Source: an uncultured Spirochaetia bacterium (GTDB taxonomy: Bacteria > Spirochaetota > Spirochaetia > CAKZLE01). Taken from it: a stretch of 64,000 bases of DNA. Location of the stretch: contig CAKZLE010000023.1 of assembly GCA_937125225.1 (NCBI GenBank), positions 1-64,000 on the forward strand, in the 5' to 3' direction. Below, in pieces: positions 8,881 through 22,944 of the stretch. The translations under genes and the position numbers were made by a program. Below the pieces are notes generated by a model, which worked only from the letters and a program-made list of their open reading frames with translations, was not told where the DNA came from and did not search any database. Positions within the stretch are counted from its first letter, which is position 1. Every line of letters starts with the position of its first letter.

Positions 8881-11439
8881 TCAGACACCATGACCTTTGT
8901 CTTTCTTCTTTTGTATATACATCTCTTGATCTGCTCGATCGACAAAGTCGAAGATCGTCGAATACTCTTCAGGTTGATATTCAGCAAATCCGACACTGGC
9001 ACTTATAGAAAACTGGAACTCATGAGTGTCGTTGACTTTCTCTATCTGTGCATCGATTCTTTTCCAGATCTCCTCAATATCGTCTTTACGAACACCAGGA
9101 AAGGTAATCAAGAATTCATCCCCTCCGATCCTACTGATAAAATCATTACTCCGAATTCCTTCTGAGACTATCTTACTGAAAGTCTTGATCAGATCATCAC
9201 CAAAATTATGGCCAAAGGTATCATTGATATACTTTAAATTGTTCATATCAGCAAAACAGATCGTGACAGGTGTCTCTGTATCTTTGAACTCAAGCACTAC
9301 CCTCTCAAGATGTTCAAAGCCTGCCCTTCGATTTGGTATACCGGTGAGGGGATCAGTCAATGCAAATTGCTTCTCTTTCTTCTCAGAGAATTTTGTCAGT
9401 CTCATATTCTGATACAAGAGAATACTGATAAGAGAAAGTGAGAAGACCAAGATGAGGAACAATCGGTTCTCATTCCAAAAATCTAAGAAGGAAAATGATC
9501 TATTAATGATCAGAGAGCCTTTGGGAAGATCATGCTCATTGATATGATACTTATCCAATTGTAATTTATCGAACATATAGGAATTCGGGCTCTCTTTCAC
9601 AATCGGAATCTCTGCTAACGGAGTTCCCATAAGATATTGGAAGACCATGCTCCCAACGAGTTCTCCCTGATTATAGCCCCGTATCAGCATCCCACCGAGC
9701 AAGCCCTTTCCAAGATAGAAGTCCCATAAACCATAGATGGGAACTGGAGACCTTTCTGAGATCAGTAATATCGATTCATCATAGGAAAAATCATTATAGG
9801 ACCTATCTCTGTTGAAACTTAATAACAAAACCAGATCATCTGTCCCTAAGTCTGGTAATCGCTCTTGGATATCAGCCATATTCAGATCATCCCAAAATTC
9901 AAAATCGACCCTCCCTGCGTAATCGGGAATCAACTTCTCAAGATTCTTTCTATTTCCAAGACCTGTTATTGTCTTATCATTAATGACGACAAATCGCTTG
10001 GTATCCGGGTGGACCTGTAAAGCGATCTCGATGGTCTCTTTCATATTATAGGCCTCAAGCACACCCGTGATATTTTCGATCTGCCCGATCATTTTCTCAT
10101 CATAATAGTTGACTCCACAAAAGAACACAGGAATCTCTGTATTAGAAAAATGGCGAAATCCTGAAATGAACTTAAAGGCATCATCATCTGTGGTGATGAT
10201 CACATCAAACTCTCTTTTATCATATTTTACCTGAAGGAAGTCATAAAGAGATTGGAAATAGGTAGGTTCAGGATTGTTCTTGACATCCATATAATCAAAT
10301 GTGAACTCTACATCCTGTAACAGGGGTGCTAGAGAGTCCATGATTCCCTTCTCTATGTCATCAGTCCACTTCAAACCCTTATTGTAGGAATTCAGAATGA
10401 GTATCTGGTGTTTGTCCCCTTGACCGGTCATATTGATGATCCGGCTATTCTCGGGAAGATCCTCGACTAAGATATCATATTCATTCAGAATCGTATGATC
10501 AAACGCATATTGGGTCATATTCTCTGTGATAACCGGTAGGTTCTCTGGGGATTCACCGTGAAGTATCTCCACCGCTAGTCGTGCAGCCATCTCTCCTTGA
10601 AAGTAGCCACTGATAAGCTTTCCTCCTACTATCCCATAATCGAGATGAAAGTCCCAAACACCGAAGATTGGCACATTACTATTACTACTGATTCTTGAGA
10701 TTGCCTCACTATATGAAAAATAGTTTTTCTGTTTATCTTGAAAATAGATGAGGTAGAGAATCAGACTGTCTTGGGGAAGTGTTCTCACCTTCAACTCGAT
10801 ATCTTCTAGGTTATCGCCATCCAAAGCAACGAAATCCACCTCAGCAGAGAACTCTGGAACCACTTTCAGGAACTCTTTCATGATAGCCTTACCGGTAAGA
10901 CTGTCATCATCGATGAAATAGATCGTCTCAGTTTGAGGTCTAAGATCTAAAGCATTTCTAATCGTATTGGAGATATCATAGCGTTCCACTACTCCAGTAT
11001 AATGATCATACCCAGCTAATATGCTTTCTTCGAAATAGTTCACACCACAGAAAACAGTCGGTGTATCCCCGAATATCTCCTCACCGTAAACTAGAAGAAA
11101 GTTGAAAGCGGCATCGTCTGAAGTGATGATCACATCAAATTGTTGATTTTCGAATTTATCCTGGTAGAGCCTTTGCAGATTTGTGATATAGGACGGGGAA
11201 AGGACTCTTTGCGTATCCATATACTCGACTTGTAACTCAAATGGAGTATCAAGCACTGATAATCCGATCTTGAGGCCCTTCTCAATATCATCACTCCACT
11301 TATATCCTTCATGATATGAGTTGATATAAAGAATATGATCAGACTCCTCCCCCATCAAGGAAAGGCTCGAAAGAAGAAATAGGATTATGAGGAGGATATA
11401 AAGAAAGCTAACATGTTTTATGAAAAATCTGATTTGCAT
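8881..11439 (-). CDS. Membrane GGDEF protein with duplicated periplasmic sensor
   Basis: An 852-residue likely diguanylate cyclase. After a signal-anchor helix the periplasmic part consists of two tandem copies of an ABC substrate-binding-like sensor (about residues 35-340 and 355-660). The copies begin with similar words, ILYINSYHEGYKWSDDIEKG and ILILNSYNKGLKWTDDIEKG, and share TTDDDAF/TSDDAAF and later FCGVNY. A transmembrane helix near 680 leads to a GGDEF domain with the intact signature near residue 772 (RIGGDEFLITF). The start at 11439 has AAGGAG 10 nt upstream. No EAL domain. It probably couples a small periplasmic ligand to c-di-GMP synthesis. Confidence 0.9.
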   Translation of the reverse strand: MQIRFFIKHVSFLYILLIILFLLSSLSLMGEESDHILYINSYHEGYKWSDDIEKGLKIGLSVLDTPFELQVEYMDTQRVLSPSYITNLQRLYQDKFENQQFDVIITSDDAAFNFLLVYGEEIFGDTPTVFCGVNYFEESILAGYDHYTGVVERYDISNTIRNALDLRPQTETIYFIDDDSLTGKAIMKEFLKVVPEFSAEVDFVALDGDNLEDIELKVRTLPQDSLILYLIYFQDKQKNYFSYSEAISRISSNSNVPIFGVWDFHLDYGIVGGKLISGYFQGEMAARLAVEILHGESPENLPVITENMTQYAFDHTILNEYDILVEDLPENSRIINMTGQGDKHQILILNSYNKGLKWTDDIEKGIMDSLAPLLQDVEFTFDYMDVKNNPEPTYFQSLYDFLQVKYDKREFDVIITTDDDAFKFISGFRHFSNTEIPVFFCGVNYYDEKMIGQIENITGVLEAYNMKETIEIALQVHPDTKRFVVINDKTITGLGNRKNLEKLIPDYAGRVDFEFWDDLNMADIQERLPDLGTDDLVLLLSFNRDRSYNDFSYDESILLISERSPVPIYGLWDFYLGKGLLGGMLIRGYNQGELVGSMVFQYLMGTPLAEIPIVKESPNSYMFDKLQLDKYHINEHDLPKGSLIINRSFSFLDFWNENRLFLILVFSLSLISILLYQNMRLTKFSEKKEKQFALTDPLTGIPNRRAGFEHLERVVLEFKDTETPVTICFADMNNLKYINDTFGHNFGDDLIKTFSKIVSEGIRSNDFISRIGGDEFLITFPGVRKDDIEEIWKRIDAQIEKVNDTHEFQFSISASVGFAEYQPEEYSTIFDFVDRADQEMYIQKKKDKGHGV

Positions 11440-11566
11440 GCAATCAGTTCTCCTTTTTTTTGAAAGATAGATTTGTTCGATTTTATAATACCTCGTCGCT
11501 ACTCTAGCAAGACCCGATTCATACAAGTAATCCATGATCTAGAAAAATGAATCTATGGCCCTAGAA

Positions 11567-13501
11567 TCAGTCATCTAAAGCACGCCGGATTGCATATGCT
11601 AATTCAGATTGTAATAGAGGCTTATGGCAATATTCCCTGATATTGGGGGTTCGCTGTTCACTTGATAGATTATTATAACCCGTACATATAATGACCGGTA
11701 AATCCTCTCTAATCTCATATACCCTTTTTGCCAACTCATCCCCAGAGAGCGCAGGCATAGTTAGATCGCTTATGATAATATCAAAAGAATTAGGGTCTCT
11801 CATAAACAGATCGATAGCCTCTAAACTATCTGTCGTATATGTTACCGTATAACCAAGTTTCACCAACATGTGTTTTTCGATCTCACAGATCGCTTTCTCA
11901 TCATCAACGAAGAGTACGTGTTCAGATCCTTGATTCGATCGCTTCGCAACCTCAGGAGTCTCAGGTAAATCCTCATTCTCCAAAGCAGGTAGATAGACTT
12001 TGAATTCAGTACCTTTCCCGATCTCGCTTGAGACATGGATCTCTCCACCATAGCTTGTCACGATTCCATGGACAACAGCCAATCCCATACCAGTACCTTT
12101 GTGTTTTTCCTTCGTAGTGAAGTAAGGTTCAAAGATCAGAGCAAGATGTTCTTTGTCGATTCCCTCTCCTGTATCAGTGATAGTCAGCTCGATATATCTT
12201 CCAGGTGGTAATGTTCCTACCACTGATGAATCGACCTCAATATCTAAAAGACCTACACCTATCACCCCGCCGCCTTCACCGAGTGCAGCGGCTGCATTGG
12301 TAAGCAGATTCAAGATGACCTGATATATCTGAGTCGAGTTACCAGATATGAAAGAACTACTTCTCAGATCTTTTTTGATCTGTATCGAAGAGGGTATAGA
12401 TGATCTGATAAAGGATATGACCTCAATGGCTACAGGTAATATATCAACAGGGCTGACCTCTACATCAGATTTTCTTGCGAAAGTAAGGATCTGTTGTGTG
12501 AGTTCTCTTGCACGTACTCCTGATGTCTCAATCTCATCGAGATACTCACAAAGTTGCCTGTTCTCTGGATTCTCGATCTTACAGATCTCAGTATAACCTA
12601 ATATTGCAGCCAGGATATTATTGAAATCATGTGCGATCCCACCCGCTAGATTACCTATTGACTCCATCTTCTGAGATTGTAAGAGTCTTTTTTCTAATAT
12701 CTGTTTCTGTATCTCCATCTCATTTCTTACAGAGATCTCCTCCGATAAGGATGCATTCACCTCAAGCAGCTTCTCAGTCCGTTTATAAACGGTCTCTTCT
12801 AGGTTCCTGTTGAGCGTGTACACTTTCTCTCGTTCAACATTCAGCATCCTTGACATGAAGAAGGTCTTCCGTGCATAGATCTCCACAATATAACTCGATA
12901 GCATCCCTATGATATTAGCACTGATGAAAAAGAAATTATTATTGATCAGAATCTCGGGTTGCGTGTCAAGGATGAGGACCGCTACGACCTCGTATGCGAG
13001 AACATTGAGCCAACCTGCAAGTGTAGCCCATATGAATCTGACTTTAGAATTACCATACCCAAGCATGAAGACCAAGATCACACCGGTATAATAGGCGTAT
13101 GTCGACTCATGAGGGGTGATCGCGATCATGATACAGATCCCAGCTCCAGCGATGAGGAGAATGAGAGAGACGATGAACTGCATATATTTTCTACAGCTTT
13201 CTCTATAGGAAAGAAGTATCGCAATGATGATCGCAGGGGATACTATCGCATATCGAATGATCCAGAGGGCTTCTTTACTCATAGGGGCCATTTTACCATC
13301 GAGAAAGCCGAAGACCATATAGAGTATCAGACCGGTTATAAGTCCAATCCTATTGAACCATAAGGAGCTATCCGCATAATCTATCAAGAACTCTTTTTCG
13401 ATTCCCTTCTCATTCTCAAAGGCTAAGGTATAAGGATTGAGATTCACCTCATCTGAGATTTGGAGGGGTGTAGCAAATAACTGTCTCATGAAACTCTTCA
13501 T
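11567..13501 (-). CDS. Hybrid sensor histidine kinase with receiver domain
   Basis: A 644-residue signalling protein. Residues 1-210 contain about six transmembrane helices (7TM/MASE-like sensor), followed by a coiled coil, an H-box GGIAHDFNN with the phospho-accepting His near residue 291, and an ATPase domain with N-box NLLTNAAAAL, DTGEG and GTGMGLAVVHG. The C-terminus is a receiver domain with acidic pair VDDE, phospho-acceptor Asp in ISDLTMP (near 578) and conserved Lys in CHKPL. No output domain or separate response regulator is adjacent. ATG at 13501 with AGGTGG 10 nt upstream is preferred over a TTG three codons earlier. Confidence 0.92.
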   Translation of the reverse strand: MKSFMRQLFATPLQISDEVNLNPYTLAFENEKGIEKEFLIDYADSSLWFNRIGLITGLILYMVFGFLDGKMAPMSKEALWIIRYAIVSPAIIIAILLSYRESCRKYMQFIVSLILLIAGAGICIMIAITPHESTYAYYTGVILVFMLGYGNSKVRFIWATLAGWLNVLAYEVVAVLILDTQPEILINNNFFFISANIIGMLSSYIVEIYARKTFFMSRMLNVEREKVYTLNRNLEETVYKRTEKLLEVNASLSEEISVRNEMEIQKQILEKRLLQSQKMESIGNLAGGIAHDFNNILAAILGYTEICKIENPENRQLCEYLDEIETSGVRARELTQQILTFARKSDVEVSPVDILPVAIEVISFIRSSIPSSIQIKKDLRSSSFISGNSTQIYQVILNLLTNAAAALGEGGGVIGVGLLDIEVDSSVVGTLPPGRYIELTITDTGEGIDKEHLALIFEPYFTTKEKHKGTGMGLAVVHGIVTSYGGEIHVSSEIGKGTEFKVYLPALENEDLPETPEVAKRSNQGSEHVLFVDDEKAICEIEKHMLVKLGYTVTYTTDSLEAIDLFMRDPNSFDIIISDLTMPALSGDELAKRVYEIREDLPVIICTGYNNLSSEQRTPNIREYCHKPLLQSELAYAIRRALDD

Positions 13502-13683
13502 AGCTGCCAAGCCACCTTTTCTAATTTCACTTAAAACACCTAGTATCTAGGTATAGGATACCATGAAAATTAGAATGAATGTATCTTTTTAAAAACCTCT
13601 GCTACTCTAACCACCTGTTTTCCTAGAGAAACTCATGTTATAATCAGTCTTATACATCAGATATTCATGAAGGGGCCATAAGT

Positions 13684-14689: not shown

Positions 14690-15277
14690 TCAGCTAATAA
14701 AAGAACGCCCCTCCATTTGTCCAGAAACACAAGGGATAATGTGGTATTCGCTGTATTCCAAGAGGGGCGGATAGAGTTTTGTAGAGACACTCCCATCTGG
14801 TTCAATAAAAATACTTTTCAGCCCACTATAGGTGATTGAACACCTTCGTCGAGTCTCTCTACAGTATACTAATAAATACGAGACAGCATCTTTCTCTGAT
14901 TTACATGCAGGAGGTAATTTCAGAGTCCTATACACAGTCGCCATAAGTCTTTCCGTTGCAAATCGAGGTTTAAGATCATCTTTTTTTAATGCAGTCTTGA
15001 ACTCTTCAAGATCCTCTGCTACTAACTCTTGTATCCTCTTGATATCTGCATCGATGATGGTGAGAAAACTCTTTGGGATCTCTCGCTCTAAAGCTATGAG
15101 TTCTTCAAGTATCTGAGAAGGGTCGCCCTTCTCAGGTAGATAGAGAGTCCTTAGAAAAGAATCCATTGGTCCTGCAGATAGCACCTTATCTCTTAGGTAG
15201 AATGAGGTTCTCCTGAATCTCTGATAACCGGGTACTTGATTGTGTATTGATGAACTGAACTGTTTTGGTGATGACAT
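14690..15277 (-). CDS. Conserved-looking protein of unknown function
   Basis: A 195-residue soluble protein that I do not recognise. The middle (ILEELIALEREIPKSF, IQELVAEDLEEFKTALKK) is helical and highly charged; the C-terminal part (ITYSGLKSIFIEPDGSVS, LEYSEYHIIPC) looks like beta structure and includes four scattered cysteines. No signal peptide or transmembrane segment. The start is the ATG at 15277 because GGAGG lies 5-6 nt upstream, which makes a genuine gene likely. Neighbours give no hint of function. Confidence 0.65.
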   Translation of the reverse strand: MSSPKQFSSSIHNQVPGYQRFRRTSFYLRDKVLSAGPMDSFLRTLYLPEKGDPSQILEELIALEREIPKSFLTIIDADIKRIQELVAEDLEEFKTALKKDDLKPRFATERLMATVYRTLKLPPACKSEKDAVSYLLVYCRETRRRCSITYSGLKSIFIEPDGSVSTKLYPPLLEYSEYHIIPCVSGQMEGRSFIS

Positions 15278-15585
15278 GCGATCCTCCGTTTTAGCAAAAT
15301 TGTTTAATGACGCTTGCAAGTAGGGGAATTCCCCATAAATCAACGTCTATATCTATAATAACAGTAACGAGCACACATTTTCAAGGGTAGGATACTCGCT
15401 ATGCTTCTCACAGAAAGAACAGATTCAACAACCTCCTCAGGTAGTTCAAAAAGATGAATGAGCAAGAACCTTTGCTTTCACTTCATGCTTGATAAGATAG
15501 TTATGTCATATTTCGAGAATTGAGTACTGTCACAGAGATATCGCCTATACCTAGAAACACCACGGCTATCAACAACCATACTGAT
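15278..15585. other. Intergenic, nothing recognised
   Basis: About 300 bp upstream of the preceding minus-strand gene and downstream of the broken membrane gene. It has no long reading frame, no RNA gene and no repeat that I can see. Confidence 0.4.
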
Positions 15586-16370: not shown

Positions 16371-16442
<72 letters not shown>

Positions 16443-16448
16443 ATTATT

Positions 16449-16521
16449 TGAGCCGCACAGGGTTCGAACCTGTGACCCACGCCTTAAAAGGGCGTTGCTC
16501 TACCAGCTGAGCTAGCGGCCC
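16449..16521 (-). tRNA. tRNA-Lys (anticodon TTT)
   Basis: 73 nt cloverleaf: acceptor GGGCCGC/GCGGCTC, D-arm GCTC...GAGC, anticodon stem ACGCC/GGCGT with loop CTTTTAA (anticodon TTT), T-arm ACAGG-TTCGAAC-CCTGT, discriminator A. CCA is not encoded. First gene of the two-tRNA unit. Confidence 0.96.
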
Positions 16522-17097: not shown

Positions 17098-19821
17098 TCA
17101 AGGAGTTAGCATGATCGGGATATCGAGTAGTATCAGCTCTATTGCAGGTTGGTTATCAGTGAAACGATAACTTATACGTAATCCAGATGAGAACTGATAA
17201 TCCTTTTGATTGAACAGGGTCATATCAACAAGGATCTCGATTCCTGCTGATTGGAGGACCCCAACTCCCCCATAGCTGATATCATAGAACATCGAGCCCC
17301 GTACCCTTTTGATGAAAGCACTTGAGAGCATCGAGAAGTCCGGATAGAGTATCGGCAGTTCATAGGTGACCCCTGATGTACCCAGAAATCCATCAGTACC
17401 GACAAGAAGAGCCACTTCGTTTCGTTCATATCCCCTAGCCGGCACCATGGTAGTTGAAATGAGACTCGTATTCCTCCATTCGATACTGCTTGAGAACTGT
17501 AGCAAGTGATCTGTGAAGATCGATGGAAGATAGCCGTTTAATGAATATTTAGCTATCATCGGAAAATCGTTACCCAAAGGGAATTCAGGAAGTATCATAT
17601 AACTGAGTTCGTGATCGAAGCCTGGAATCTGATCATTCAAGGCCCTGTAGGGGGCATCCTTACCATAAGAGAACCTATCAAAGAAGCCTAACCTCAGGGG
17701 ATGGCTTGGTGCATCCGCTGAACCGAATACTCCATATACCCCGATCTGATGGGTAGAGGATCGTCCATACTTCGCCCCATACATAGTAGAGGATAATACC
17801 CCCGTCAGATCATATTCCCACAAGTCAGAGAAATCGGTCTCAACGGCCCCAGTCAATGACTGCAGCAGGACATCACCAGAGTGTGTTACCCCGAGACTCC
17901 CGGTAAATCTTCCACTCTCTGGAATATAACCCACTGAGGCTGAACTCACCCATTCGATATAAGGATCTGCACTCTTCACCCCGAGAATGATTTCATCGAA
18001 TTGATCAGGGATCTGCACTCCCAAGGCATAGGGATTCAAAGCCCAGGACAATTCATTATAAGTACGCTTCTCATAGGTCCTCCCATGAAGAATCTCAGAG
18101 TCGTTGAACAAGTTCGGTTCATAGAAATCTGATACATAACCTGTATGATAATCAATCATATCCTTCTTTTCAGGGATCAATACCATCAAAGACTCCTTAT
18201 CGAAGGAGGTTGTCTCAACGGCATATAAGATTCCATCCACCACTTCAGGATCGAACACCCCATAGGGAGATGTGGTAAGCTGTAACAACTCCCTGGTATC
18301 CAGGTCAAGGGAGTATATCTCCTGAATTCCGGTGATATCTGATGAGAAGTAGAGCTTGTTACCGTCCACTGAAAGCCCATAGAGATAATGATGCCCAAGT
18401 TCATAGAGGACTTCTGAGGAACCATCTAGTGAGAATGCTCGAAGCTCTCGACCTGTCTTACCTTCTACTACCACATAGTAGGTATCACCATCATGGATGA
18501 CACTTGAGAGATAGACAGGATCCTTTGGGGGTATCTTTGCGGTCAGCAGTTTCTTCTCAATATCAAAGGAGAGGATCATCCCCTTCTCTATCGGATCATA
18601 AGAGATGATCGAAATACTATTATCGTCCTCATCAATATAGGGAAGACCGATGAATCTCCCCTCACCTATATCTATAGTCGTTCTCTTATTTCTGTCATAT
18701 AGGACAAGGACCGCAACGGTCTTATCCTTCTCGAATAGCTGTGGTCTGTGTTCGATCCAGGTGACATAGTTCTCAGATATATCAACAGCTGAACCTGAGA
18801 TCGAGAGGATATCCTCTACCCTATTATCTGTAACCTCTTTAAGCCGAAGGCCCTGAGATCTATCGTAATCGATGATAGAGACCTTCTTCTCCTCGATCAG
18901 ATAATCAGAAATATAGGAATACCCTTTACCTGAAGGAGTATAGATCTCCTCTCTTGGAGTCATTTCTCTCAGATTCTCTACCCTCTCCCATTTCGGAATC
19001 AGATCAGACTTCACGAGTTCGAAAAGCCTCTCAGGTGACAGATACCTGCCACCTACTCCGGACAAAGCTATCGTCGGTGAAATGAAGGGGATGGGATATC
19101 TTCCCAGACTCTGGAACAATTCACCAGCTGCTGTAGGGCCCTCTTCGTTCAGCAGGTATCCGAGCATATAGTAGCCATAGACATATTGATTGGGCATATT
19201 ATGGATATAGGAGCCATTAGTGAGCTCCTCCCATGAGATCTCTGGTTTCTCAAGCAGAAGAGCTTTGAATCTACGCTCAAAATCTGCCGATCGACCTCTG
19301 CCCTCTTCTGAATAGATTGTCTCAGATACCACTGCATCACCTTCAAAGATCCAGCTAGGGATCAGGGCATGGGCAAAACTCGTCATCAGCTGATTGCCAC
19401 CTAGATACCTGACAATATTCGTCACACCCGTGTTGATTGTCTCATACTGGATCATATGACGCCCCTCATGTAGGGCGAGAAGATGGAGCCAGGAATCACC
19501 AGAGAAGAAGCTGTCATAAGGAGATAACTCCCACACCGTCCTCGCAACGGGGAGGGAGACATACCCCGAAGGAGATGAGGATTCACCTTCGAGGAGGACA
19601 GGCCATGAAAAGATATTCTTCGTACCCATGAAATCTCTGTAGGTGGTGAGGATTGTATCAAGATCTGCTAAAGACTCTACGGCTATTGCTTCATAGGGTT
19701 CATCATAGATGTAGGTCAATCCATTCATAGATATTTCATACAGTTGTTCTTCGGCGAACGCTGAAGAGGCCATAAGGAGGATCACCATGATGAGAATTCC
19801 TAGAATCGATGAGTTTCGCAT
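17098..19821 (-). CDS. Secreted protein: zinc-protease motif, beta-propeller and outer-membrane barrel
   Basis: A 907-residue exported protein (signal peptide ending SSAFA near residue 23). Residues 118-122 are HEGRH, an HExxH zinc motif, and 38 residues on comes WIFEGDA with Glu160, the gluzincin-type third ligand as in peptidase MA-like proteins. Residues about 300-560 carry TolB/WD40-like propeller blades (SVDGNKLYFSSDITGIQEIY, DPEVVDGILYAVE). The last 300 residues alternate as barrel strands (GVYGVFGSADAP, GSMFYDISYGGVGVLQSAGIEI) like surface-antigen/BamA-type barrels. Start ATG 19821 has AGGAG 7 nt upstream. It probably places a periplasmic or surface protease on an outer-membrane anchor; cleavage activity is inferred. 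Confidence 0.75.
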   Translation of the reverse strand: MRNSSILGILIMVILLMASSAFAEEQLYEISMNGLTYIYDEPYEAIAVESLADLDTILTTYRDFMGTKNIFSWPVLLEGESSSPSGYVSLPVARTVWELSPYDSFFSGDSWLHLLALHEGRHMIQYETINTGVTNIVRYLGGNQLMTSFAHALIPSWIFEGDAVVSETIYSEEGRGRSADFERRFKALLLEKPEISWEELTNGSYIHNMPNQYVYGYYMLGYLLNEEGPTAAGELFQSLGRYPIPFISPTIALSGVGGRYLSPERLFELVKSDLIPKWERVENLREMTPREEIYTPSGKGYSYISDYLIEEKKVSIIDYDRSQGLRLKEVTDNRVEDILSISGSAVDISENYVTWIEHRPQLFEKDKTVAVLVLYDRNKRTTIDIGEGRFIGLPYIDEDDNSISIISYDPIEKGMILSFDIEKKLLTAKIPPKDPVYLSSVIHDGDTYYVVVEGKTGRELRAFSLDGSSEVLYELGHHYLYGLSVDGNKLYFSSDITGIQEIYSLDLDTRELLQLTTSPYGVFDPEVVDGILYAVETTSFDKESLMVLIPEKKDMIDYHTGYVSDFYEPNLFNDSEILHGRTYEKRTYNELSWALNPYALGVQIPDQFDEIILGVKSADPYIEWVSSASVGYIPESGRFTGSLGVTHSGDVLLQSLTGAVETDFSDLWEYDLTGVLSSTMYGAKYGRSSTHQIGVYGVFGSADAPSHPLRLGFFDRFSYGKDAPYRALNDQIPGFDHELSYMILPEFPLGNDFPMIAKYSLNGYLPSIFTDHLLQFSSSIEWRNTSLISTTMVPARGYERNEVALLVGTDGFLGTSGVTYELPILYPDFSMLSSAFIKRVRGSMFYDISYGGVGVLQSAGIEILVDMTLFNQKDYQFSSGLRISYRFTDNQPAIELILLDIPIMLTP

Positions 19822-19883
19822 GCCCAATCTCCTAGTAGTGGTTAAGTAGTTTGTTTTCCTATTATAACTAAGATATCACGGTA

Positions 19884-19912
19884 TTGACAGATAGAACCCT
19901 ATGAATTAGGTT
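19884..19912 (+). promoter_or_regulatory. Promoter of the cobalamin riboswitch transcript
   Basis: TTGACA (19884-19889), 17-nt spacer, TAGGTT (19907-19912). The -10 is weak but the spacing and the position just before the riboswitch fit; the start point would be near 19919. A TATAAT on the minus strand (19866-19861) may serve the divergent gene, so the two promoters would overlap. Confidence 0.65.
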
Positions 19913-19918
19913 AAAGCT

Positions 19919-20150
19919 AAGTTTTAGTCGGCTTACCGCCGCTAAGAGGGAAACGAGTGAGATTCTCGTACGGTCCCGCCACTGAAATTGGAATGCGAAC
20001 TTGAACCATCTCAAGAGATTGAGAACCACTGTTCTTGTAGAAGAATGGGAAGGTAATGGTTTTTAGGATGTCCATAGTCAGGAGACCTGCTGAAACTTGC
20101 CAGGACTGACCTGTGTGCAGTCTTAAACTCACGGAGCATGAGTTACGAGG
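19919..20150 (+). ncRNA. Cobalamin riboswitch
   Basis: The region carries the conserved core of the adenosylcobalamin riboswitch: GAGGGAAACGAGTGAGATTC (19946 on), CGGTCCCGCCACTG (19971-19984), and the B12 box AGTCAGGAGACCTGC (20076-20090). Downstream comes a hairpin (AACTCA/TGAGTT, 20126-20144) and a short GAGG/CCTC stem. No T-run follows, so control of translation initiation is more likely than attenuation. It lies about 100 nt before the substrate-binding protein gene and implies that the following importer carries B12 or a corrinoid. Confidence 0.92.
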
Positions 20151-20192
20151 CAATCCTCTACTTGTGTTCTCTATCTAACCATGGAGACATAC

Positions 20193-21104
20193 ATGAAAAA
20201 GAAACTGTTACTGATCTTACTTCTCATTATGATGGTCGCATTACCACTTTTTGCAAACGGTGTGAGTGAAAGTACCCCTATCGAACATGATAGTGATACC
20301 CTCTATACCGACTCCTTCTCGAGGATCGTACGAGTACCTGCAGACATCTCAAGAATCGTCTCTCTCGGACCTAATATCACAGAGGCAGTCTTTGCACTAG
20401 GACTTGGGGAGAACCTCGTTGGAAGAACAGACTATTGTGACTTCCCCGTAGAGGTGTTCGAACTCACGAGTGTAGGATCCATCAGTGACCCCAATGTAGA
20501 GACGATCATCGAACTTGATCCCGATCTCGTCATCGGATCTACCCATACCAAGAAAGAGACCCTCGACAGACTCGAGGATGCAGGTATCACCACGGTAGGA
20601 ATCTATTCAGATAACTCTATGAATGGGGTCTACAAGACCATCGCAGACCTAGGGATGATCCTACGAGTAGAGGATACCGCAACTGCGACCATCACAGAGA
20701 TGAAAGATACCATCAATATGATCACAGAGAAGATCGAAGGAGCTGATACCCCCTCAGTCTACTATGTGGTTGGGTTCGGCGAATGGGGAGACTTCACCGC
20801 AGGAGGAGATACCTTCATCCATGATATCATCACCCTCGCAGGAGGGGCTAATATCGCAGCCGATGTGAAGGGCTGGTCCTACAGTCTTGAGAGGATCATT
20901 GAGAATGATCCCGATATCATCATCTGTTCCCAATATTGGGGGACTCCGGAGATGTTCGTCTCAACTCCAGCTTATGAGGATCTGAGAGCGGTAAAAGAGG
21001 GACATCTCTATGCAATCGATAACAACATGCTCGATAGACAGGGTGTGAGGAACGCTCAGGGTGCATTGACCCTGGCAAAGATATTCCACCCGGAACTCTT
21101 CTAG
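20193..21104 (+). CDS. btuF: Cobalamin-type ABC transporter substrate-binding protein
   Basis: A 303-residue periplasmic binding protein of the helical-backbone class (BtuF/FhuD/FecB). Signal peptide MKKKLLLILLLIMMVALPLFA, then the TroA-like fold: RIVSLGPNITEAVFALGLGENLVGRTDYCDFP near residue 50 and ETIIELDPDLVIGSTHT near 100. The siderophore relatives share this fold, so substrate is assigned from the cobalamin riboswitch just upstream. The ATG at 20193 (GGAG 6 nt upstream) is preferred over the ATG four codons earlier. First gene of a three-gene operon. Confidence 0.85.
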   Translation: MKKKLLLILLLIMMVALPLFANGVSESTPIEHDSDTLYTDSFSRIVRVPADISRIVSLGPNITEAVFALGLGENLVGRTDYCDFPVEVFELTSVGSISDPNVETIIELDPDLVIGSTHTKKETLDRLEDAGITTVGIYSDNSMNGVYKTIADLGMILRVEDTATATITEMKDTINMITEKIEGADTPSVYYVVGFGEWGDFTAGGDTFIHDIITLAGGANIAADVKGWSYSLERIIENDPDIIICSQYWGTPEMFVSTPAYEDLRAVKEGHLYAIDNNMLDRQGVRNAQGALTLAKIFHPELF

Positions 21105-21111
21105 GGAACAT

Positions 21112-22149
21112 ATGAGATACACACACGGAGCAATGAAGACAAGACCAGCCTCATTCACGATCCTCTTAGGGTCAATCATACTCATTCTAGCTGCTCTAGT
21201 ATCTATATCCTTCGGTACAGCGAACATCTCGTTCACCGATACGATCAAAGTCCTAGTCTTCGGTGAACAGGCGCCAGATGTGAGTCGGTCCTATATCTAC
21301 ATCATCCAGGCAATCAGGATACCCCGAGTCATAACAGCTATCATCGTCGGTATGGCTCTCGCAGCATCCGGGGTGGTCTTCCAGGCACTCTTTAGAAATC
21401 CCATGGCTGAACCATTCATCCTCGGAGTCTCCTCAGGAGCTGCCTTTGGAGTCGCTTTCGGCGCACTTATCGGTGCCTTCACGCTCCTGCCTGGTTCCTG
21501 GGGAATCCCCCTGTTCGCTTTCATCGGCGGTATAGGGGCTTCTTCAACGATCTACCTCCTTTCAGGAGGGATGCGTTCCACATCAGTGACGTTACTGTTA
21601 TCTGGTGTGGCGATGAACTTCCTACTATCTGCGATGATGTCCTTGAGTATGTACTTTAATCGTGAACAGCTAGAGGATATCATCTTCTGGACTATGGGTT
21701 CCTTCTCTTCAGCTAGCTGGGAGAAACTGATGATCATAGCACCTGTGATGATAATAGGTATCATCATCCTGCTCTTCTATCACCGGGAGATGGATCTTCT
21801 CCTACTCGGTGATGAGGCTGCTCGATCTATGGGATTATCGATCAAGAAGACTCGGATCCTTCTCCTGGTCCTCTCTACACTACTTACAGCAAGTGCTGTA
21901 GCTATCAGTGGGGTTATCGGTTTTGTTGGCCTGGTGACTCCTCATATCGTACGGATCATCGTAGGCCCCACTCATAAGCGACTCCTTCCACTAGCGGTGA
22001 TCCTTGGAGGGTTATTCACCCTCCTCGCTGATACCATCGCACGAGGTGTCCTTCAGAATTCTGAGATACCGGTAGGTATCATCACCTCCATGACCGGGGC
22101 CCCATTCTTCATCTATCTCCTGAGAAACCAGAAGAAAGAGGTATTCTAG
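21112..22149 (+). CDS. btuC: Cobalamin-type ABC transporter permease (FecCD family)
   Basis: A 345-residue inner-membrane permease with about ten helices and family landmarks: IRIPRVITAIIVGMALAASG near residue 65, FRNPMAEPFILGVSSGAAFG near 90, and the ATPase-contacting GDEAARSMG near 235 with GFVGLVTPHIVRIIVG near 270. It starts 7 bp after btuF with AGGGA as ribosome binding site and abuts the ATPase gene directly. Confidence 0.9.
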   Translation: MRYTHGAMKTRPASFTILLGSIILILAALVSISFGTANISFTDTIKVLVFGEQAPDVSRSYIYIIQAIRIPRVITAIIVGMALAASGVVFQALFRNPMAEPFILGVSSGAAFGVAFGALIGAFTLLPGSWGIPLFAFIGGIGASSTIYLLSGGMRSTSVTLLLSGVAMNFLLSAMMSLSMYFNREQLEDIIFWTMGSFSSASWEKLMIIAPVMIIGIIILLFYHREMDLLLLGDEAARSMGLSIKKTRILLLVLSTLLTASAVAISGVIGFVGLVTPHIVRIIVGPTHKRLLPLAVILGGLFTLLADTIARGVLQNSEIPVGIITSMTGAPFFIYLLRNQKKEVF

Positions 22150-22944
22150 ATGGGTAAAGATTCAATGATCAATATAGAGAAACTCTCATGGGCCTACCAT
22201 GACGGTAAACCTATCCTGACGGATGTGGCAGCTTCGATAGAGAAGAACACCTTCACGACTATTCTAGGACCTAATGGTTCTGGAAAGACGACTCTCCTAA
22301 AACAGATACTTCGTGTCCTTCCGGTAGCGAAGAAGACGATATATCTCAATAAAGAGGATATAACGTTGTTGAACCGACAGGAACTCTCTCAAGAGATCGG
22401 TATGGTTCCCCAGAATGAACGCAACCCTTATCAGTTCACTGTAGAGGATATGATCAGGCTCGGGAGATATACCCATAGGAAACAGGATTCTGCTGATCTT
22501 GAGGGATCTATGAAGATCATCGCTGATGTGATGAGCCTCACATCCATCACCCATCTCAAGGACCATCTGATAACAGAACTCTCAGGGGGTGAGTATCAGC
22601 GAGTCATCATTGCCCGGGCCTTGGCTCAGGAGCCTAAAATACTGGCCCTCGACGAACCTACGACCTATCTTGACCCCAAACACCAGCTAGATATCCTGAA
22701 ACTGCTTAGAGAACTGATTCAGACTGAGGATCTTACGGTGATTTGTATACTCCATGATCTCAATTCAGCCCTCACCTTCAGTGATCATGTCATCCTACTC
22801 CATGAGGGAGAGGTATATCGACACGGCTCCCCAAATCAGATGCTGACTACTGAGAATCTCAAAGCTGTCTACGGAATAGATACTGCGAGGATCATCAACC
22901 CCTTTACTGGTGGCCCTTTTATCATCTCTGATACCAGATCATAA
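22150..22944 (+). CDS. btuD: Cobalamin-type ABC transporter ATPase
   Basis: A 264-residue nucleotide-binding protein with Walker A GPNGSGKTTL near residue 38, Q-loop VPQNERNPYQF, signature LSGGEYQRV near 143, Walker B ILALDEPT near 163 and the switch His in CILHDLNSAL. Its ATG directly follows the permease stop codon (TAGATG), with AGAGG inside the end of the permease gene, indicating coupled translation. Completes the riboswitch-controlled importer. Confidence 0.9.
   Translation: MGKDSMINIEKLSWAYHDGKPILTDVAASIEKNTFTTILGPNGSGKTTLLKQILRVLPVAKKTIYLNKEDITLLNRQELSQEIGMVPQNERNPYQFTVEDMIRLGRYTHRKQDSADLEGSMKIIADVMSLTSITHLKDHLITELSGGEYQRVIIARALAQEPKILALDEPTTYLDPKHQLDILKLLRELIQTEDLTVICILHDLNSALTFSDHVILLHEGEVYRHGSPNQMLTTENLKAVYGIDTARIINPFTGGPFIISDTRS

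Follow-up and report, generated by a model that had tools for sequence, protein, structure and literature searches.

Proteins in which a TolB-like β-propeller precedes an Omp85 barrel were described in 2014 by Heinz and Lithgow as the WD40-Omp85 proteins, a non-POTRA architecture whose function is not established in the sections that treat this group (PMC4104836). A fusion of an enzyme to an Omp85 barrel is also known in PlpD, which was once thought to display its enzyme, and the experiments as outlined in PMC11116518 found the enzyme domain in the periplasm. As presented in the relevant part of PMC8423444, BepA, a periplasmic zinc metallopeptidase of family M48, works at the BAM complex, where it acts on an outer-membrane protein. 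No account of a three-part peptidase-propeller-Omp85 protein was found in the open literature that we searched, a scope outside which preprints and most subscription papers lie. To our knowledge BepA is not fused to a propeller or a barrel, and most of what is known of quality control in the envelope comes from proteobacteria. The Pfam family PF00149 is presumably that of the calcineurin-like metallophosphoesterases. A separate Omp85 group labelled 'Metallo' (metalloprotease) was assigned PF00149 in the classification given in PMC4104836, and if that family is indeed one of metallophosphoesterases, the members of this 'metalloprotease' group may not be proteases. The pairing of propeller and Omp85 barrel has been known since 2014, and the locus described here shows it together with a predicted peptidase domain, in a three-part form.

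The gene and its surroundings

The window, the whole 64,000-nucleotide stretch of DNA from an uncultured Spirochaetia bacterium analysed here, encodes a protein of 907 amino acids at 17098..19821 (stop codon included). The open reading frame had been reported by the first-pass annotation with no strand given; it is a real gene and lies on the minus strand. The ATG at 19821 is preferred as the start over a TTG six bases further upstream that is also in the list of open reading frames, and an AGGAG at 19829..19833 (minus strand), seven bases upstream of the ATG, is the probable ribosome-binding site. Residues 1–23 (19753..19821, minus strand), which end in AFA, were read by eye as a probable signal peptide, and in the structural model a low-confidence helix (residues 2–19) stands at this position before the first domain. 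A promoter-like site at 19890-19861 was dropped, since 12 such sites were found against 10.3 expected.

Downstream, 32 bases away and on the same strand, lies an RNase HI gene, followed by two tRNA genes (16371-16521, minus strand) and then a terminator-like hairpin (16367-16339). On the upstream side, divergently oriented genes encode an ABC transporter set (20181-22944; binding protein, FecCD permease and ATPase), probably a B12 importer, and stand behind a cobalamin riboswitch at 19908-20108 on the plus strand (Rfam RF00174, 88.2 bits). Elsewhere in the window, a 217-residue open reading frame at 14690-15343 (minus strand) has no Pfam match at E 0.001, and at 8881-13510 (minus strand) a hybrid histidine kinase adjoins a protein that combines GGDEF and ABC_sub_bind domains. 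A search of a plasmid collection with the 907-residue protein gave no match, and no defence system was found with the PADLOC models.

Predicted structure

The structure was predicted with AlphaFold2 from 46 sequences, the window protein and relatives from 45 of the 80 loci described below (alignment A3). The full model has a mean pLDDT of 88.4 and a pTM of 0.90, and it consists of the low-confidence N-terminal helix, a mainly helical domain at residues 25–285 (18967..19749, minus strand), a β-propeller, and a barrel from residue 597. The three domains proposed in the first-pass annotation, a peptidase with a gluzincin motif, a TolB-like propeller and a BamA-like barrel, are all present in this prediction. 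The peptidase domain is delimited by the model and by profile matches. When the full model was used for fold searches, the VIA alignments covered essentially residues 286–553 and the best 50 Foldseek matches were mostly propeller proteins, so that the lack of an M9 peptidase in those lists is no evidence of absence.

The propeller (residues 286–553; 18163..18966, minus strand) is of TolB type, aligning with an E. coli TolB model at a Z-score of 19.7 (rmsd 2.9, 230 residues) and with TolB crystal structures at Z-scores up to 19.4; six blades are assigned because of this alignment. Direct library matches are weak and all fall in the propeller: DUF5050 scores 18.9 bits against a cut-off of 27, and two TolB models score 16 and 15.6 bits against cut-offs of 343 and 405.

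When modeled alone, the barrel (residues 597–906; 17104..18033, minus strand) has a pLDDT of 84.3 and a pTM of 0.74 and shows 16 main strands, a count that leaves out two short pieces at 275–277 and 347–350 of the barrel-alone model. Its longest loop, of 27 residues, connects strands 11 and 12 and carries the sequence RGY (residues 796–798; 17428..17436, minus strand), in which Gly797 is found in 46/46 sequences of A3, Arg796 in 35/46 and Tyr798 in 36/46. In Omp85 proteins the VRG motif of loop 6 is located between strands 11 and 12, and the predicted barrel, with 16 strands and an R-G motif in the corresponding loop, is consistent with an Omp85 fold. The strands are amphipathic, with a mean alternation of 1.75 over 17 pieces compared with 0.43 over 22 propeller strands, on a scale of our own in which Trp and Tyr are raised and on which the first barrel piece reaches only 0.41.

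Foldseek comparison of the barrel alone with the PDB returned, as its best 50 matches, entries that by title all belong to the Omp85 superfamily (BamA, TamA, Sam50, FhaC); 32 have E-values no higher than 0.001, the best E is 2.9e-5 and the query TM-scores are 0.31–0.44. In the VIA alignment the top rank went to BamA of F. johnsoniae (Z 16.3, rmsd 5.6, 267 residues), although the method discriminates poorly here, with the unrelated barrels MOMP, AlgE and OprC reaching about 14, some 2 Z units below the best Omp85 protein. Support from the primary structure is weak: profile-profile comparison with BamA of the same clade gave a probability of 3.8 at E 0.011, with RGY falling on the VRG/ARG motif of BamA; the barrel profile matched nothing among PDB sequences at E up to 5; and no Pfam peptidase or Omp85 model matched the 907-residue protein at E up to 1. 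The only PF01103 match in the genome is a separate BamA-like protein, the 907-residue protein not being detected by this model. The earlier description of the C-terminal domain as BamA-like is upheld by the strand number, the Foldseek matches and the position of the RGY loop, and that of TolB-like blades by the structural alignment with TolB.

The predicted zinc motif and its conservation

The translation confirms HEGRH at residues 118–122 and WIFEG at 157–161, so that the numbering of Glu160 was correct. In the model HEGRH (19456..19470, minus strand) lies in helix 111–129 and WIFEG (19339..19353, minus strand) in helix 156–169, separated by helix 132–153, and the two motif-bearing helices are distinct but near one another. 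An HExxH in one helix with a glutamate in a following helix, both conserved, is the arrangement of a gluzincin; His118 and His122 would serve as zinc ligands with Glu119 as the catalytic residue, and Glu160 is the candidate third ligand. Helix 156–169 also contains a second invariant glutamate, Glu167 (19321..19323, minus strand; 26/26 in alignment A2 and 46/46 in A3). Tyr213 (19183..19185, minus strand), which aligns with an active-site tyrosine of M9 collagenase, is found in 25/26 and 46/46 sequences of these alignments, respectively, the exception being L022, with Trp in the aligned column.

Among the 56 window frames of at least 150 codons from stop to stop, HExxH occurs three times, and only the frame of the 907-residue gene has HExxH followed within 18–90 residues by EG-x5-E, from which we conclude that the motif is more than chance. 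Homologues were collected by whole-protein similarity search of 60 genomes with no motif filter, and matches were found in 30 of these, the genome of the window included. All 30 loci, again counting our own, keep HExxH-x25-45-EG-x5-E, and none carries a degenerate copy of the catalytic set. Twenty-six of the proteins form alignment A2, from which the near-duplicates L009 and L019 and the fragments L028 and L029 were left out; 13 of the 907 positions are invariant, including His118, Glu119, His122, Glu160 and Glu167. The three residues on which the zinc site had been built at the first reading, His118, His122 and Glu160, are therefore retained across the homologues. Two branches are seen in the family, one with an HELTH-like motif and one, which includes the window protein, with HExRH. 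One homologue, L015 (G035:C75:10805-13261), is broken by an in-frame TAG.

Comparison with M9 and MA_2 peptidases

Two profiles of the peptidase domain were built, A4 on 25 domain segments drawn from both branches and A6 on the HExRH branch only. Of the 25 segments, nine match Peptidase_MA_2 and seven match Peptidase_M9 at an E of 0.1 or lower, the window segment matching neither. The Pfam M9 cut-off of 26 is exceeded by two members of the family, L123 with 31.6 bits and L124 with 27.6 bits. A4 matches ColG at E 0.00055, with each aligned stretch weak on its own and the third ligand outside the listed stretches. In this alignment the NG of the family falls on the NGG of ColG (Asn in 44/46 sequences; Ser85-Gly86 in the window protein) and Tyr213 stands in a column opposite a ColG tyrosine that is Tyr607 by our count, with HEYTH anchored to His523. 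According to the active-site descriptions in PMC9304777, the zinc ligands of ColG are His523, His527 and Glu555, and the Y564A variant of Ghcol lost activity on synthetic peptides; in the active site of ColG, contacts of inhibitors with Glu555 and with Tyr607 are depicted in PMC9574867. We infer that Tyr607 of ColG is equivalent to Tyr564 of Ghcol.

Searched against PDB sequences, A6 found no M9 structure, so the M9 link rests on the non-HExRH branch; its only match, a tyrosine aminotransferase at E 0.6, was taken as chance. The 907-residue protein has no match to PF01752 (Peptidase_M9) at E up to 1 and its genome none at E up to 0.001, and PF13485 (Peptidase_MA_2) has no match in the genome at E up to 10. 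The three class proteins that pass the PF13485 cut-off (L112-L114) are other proteins and match A4 only in part. Across 198 genomes from the phylum that includes Pedobacter, the M9 model gave no match at E 1e-8; no control responded in this search, which makes it uninformative. The 907-residue protein has the HExxH, the downstream glutamate and the active-site tyrosine (25/26) of M9 peptidases, and it lacks an M9 activator domain, fewer than 100 residues lying between the signal peptide and HExxH. Taken together, these comparisons point to a gluzincin-type domain distantly resembling M9 and MA_2 peptidases, short of proven membership in M9.

Distribution and gene neighborhoods

In 99 of the 148 class genomes the profile of the 26 aligned proteins has matches with E no higher than 1e-5, some of which cover the propeller only. 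Long matches, defined as a single match from profile position 25 or before to 700 or beyond of 911, were counted by hand in 57 of the 148 genomes, the source genome included; 55 have one long copy and two (G118, G120) have two. Named genomes were scanned as well; of the 91 relatives detected there, 80 were kept, which are assigned by record titles to Spirochaetota, Bacteroidota (including Pedobacter, Sphingobacterium, Aquirufa and Spirosoma), Neomarinimicrobiota, Aminicenantes, Vicinamibacteria and one unclassified bacterium. EG-x5-E is present in 80/80 and is the independent evidence in this set, the HExxH being none since the scan pattern demanded HE[GTL]RH. Seventy-three are complete open reading frames of 907 to 1043 amino acids, with starts chosen by hand, and the other seven run off a contig end. 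When eight of these genomes were searched again, each holding at least one long match by construction, six had one and two had two. The family is widespread and mostly single-copy, and the first-pass remark that similar three-part proteins exist is borne out by full-length relatives that are common, in addition to the propeller-Omp85 group described in 2014. In the L036 genome (Vicinamibacteria; G154:C184:3726-11688), two full-length copies lie about 2.4 kb apart in divergent orientation.

Besides the family itself, the largest clusters of neighboring genes comprise 29 of 81 loci (Pedobacter-type), 12 to 13 (Aquirufa/Spirosoma-type) and 8, and the window locus is absent from all of the 25 largest listed clusters except that of the family. 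Neighbors examined by eye in three loci (L061, L050 and L034) look mostly like housekeeping genes, and with the window locus outside the listed non-family clusters, gene neighborhood was rejected as a clue to function. The 29 mostly Pedobacter loci share three upstream genes; in L061 (2612-8971), inspection by eye suggests tgt, a permease resembling LptF/LptG and a transporter of the EamA type. A small downstream gene (96 amino acids in L061) is shared in 26. The permease two genes upstream in these Pedobacter-type loci is suggestive at most of a role.

Proposed role

The reading that we favor, to which we give an about even chance, is that the protein is a zinc endopeptidase tethered to the outer membrane at its inner face, where it would cut periplasm-side clients in the manner of BepA. 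A signal peptide would direct the export of the putative gluzincin-type endopeptidase, and the C-terminal Omp85-type barrel of the same chain would anchor it to the periplasmic side of the outer membrane, with the TolB-type propeller acting as spacer and docking platform between peptidase and barrel. The likeliest clients would be misassembled or maturing outer-membrane proteins, or lipoproteins, that arrive at or leave the outer membrane, and the mode of action may resemble that of BepA, possibly with contact to the BAM complex. The even number of strands and the Omp85-type loop pattern predict, by analogy, that the N-terminal domains face the periplasm, and the separate BamA-like protein of the genome implies that the 907-residue protein is an accessory one. 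The envelope-protease role is considered likeliest because of that BamA-like protein, the few long copies per genome, the lack of a neighbor that points to a function, and the precedent of PlpD. The conserved catalytic set, the two nearby motif helices, the sequence link to MA_2 and M9, the TolB-type propeller, the amphipathic barrel strands and their Omp85 fold matches also speak for this reading, as does the precedent of BepA; the weak or missing sequence matches to Omp85 and peptidase families, the failure of A6 to find an M9 structure, the poor discrimination of the VIA alignment and gene neighborhoods that lend no support speak against it.

A less probable reading, and in our view an unlikely one, is that the protein is mainly an Omp85-type assembly or translocation factor whose peptidase trims or licenses its own client. 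The pairing of propeller and Omp85 barrel was read, in the discussion of that group in PMC4104836, as reminiscent of a BamA-BamB fusion, and the alignment of RGY with the VRG motif of BamA, with Gly797 in 46/46 sequences, is in keeping with such a function; against it, we see no POTRA-like domain in the secondary structure of the model, and sequence similarity to Omp85 proteins is weak or absent.

We regard as more doubtful still that the barrel displays or translocates the peptidase for the digestion of external or surface proteins, even though the active-site residues recall the secreted M9 collagenases, a signal peptide was read by eye, and translocation of proteins is known for some members of the Omp85/TpsB group, FhaC among them, as stated in the overview of the superfamily in PMC4104836. 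By analogy, a barrel of 16 strands in which the RGY loop joins strands 11 and 12 would have both termini in the periplasm and leave the N-terminal peptidase there, long copies are few per genome, and the enzyme domain of PlpD proved periplasmic in the account given by PMC11116518. The earlier proposal that the protein processes surface or exported proteins accordingly stands in part, proteins in or crossing the periplasm being plausible clients and action at the surface less likely. That the HExxH fold is kept only as an inactive binding scaffold is very improbable, since one would expect a protein that served purely as a scaffold to have lost some catalytic residues, and His118, Glu119, His122 and Glu160 are each found in 26/26 proteins, HExxH-EG-E in 30/30 loci and the tyrosine in 25/26, even if no activity report for any member was found in the open literature searched.

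More speculatively, and we think this unlikely, the Omp85 barrel, the BamB/TolB-like propeller and the BepA-like peptidase could form a one-chain machine that stands beside BamA in several phyla and folds, clips or discards particular outer-membrane clients. If the envelope-protease reading is true, a conserved protease on its own Omp85-type barrel would provide Spirochaetota, Bacteroidota and further diderm phyla with an independent means of envelope quality control, and the family offers defined residues for testing (Glu119, Glu160, Tyr213 and the RGY loop). Should the WD40-Omp85 group of 2014 carry the same peptidase domain, a concrete function would follow for that group as well.

Comparison with known systems

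The M9 collagenases ColG and Ghcol share with the family the HExxH, the downstream glutamate and the active-site tyrosine, and with most relatives the NG motif on a presumed edge strand, where the window protein has Ser-Gly. The collagenases have a large activator domain, which the window protein lacks, and only one branch of the family reveals the similarity, which is weak. The propeller fold is shared with TolB of the Tol-Pal system (best Z 19.7), whereas the propeller of the window protein is fused to other domains and misses the NCBIfam equivalog cut-off for TolB (16 bits against 343). With BepA, named as an M48 peptidase in the description in PMC8423444, the analogy is one of role only. 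PlpD, as characterized in the portion of PMC11116518 that concerns its architecture, resembles the window protein in that an enzyme domain precedes an Omp85 barrel in one chain, and differs in being a homodimer with a patatin-like domain and POTRA where the window protein has a peptidase and a propeller. In the WD40-Omp85 subfamily, as in the window protein, a TolB-like propeller stands directly N-terminal to the Omp85 barrel with no POTRA domain between them, the latter as read from the secondary structure of our model; the description of that group in PMC4104836 mentions, in the sections devoted to it, no peptidase domain of the kind predicted for the window protein.
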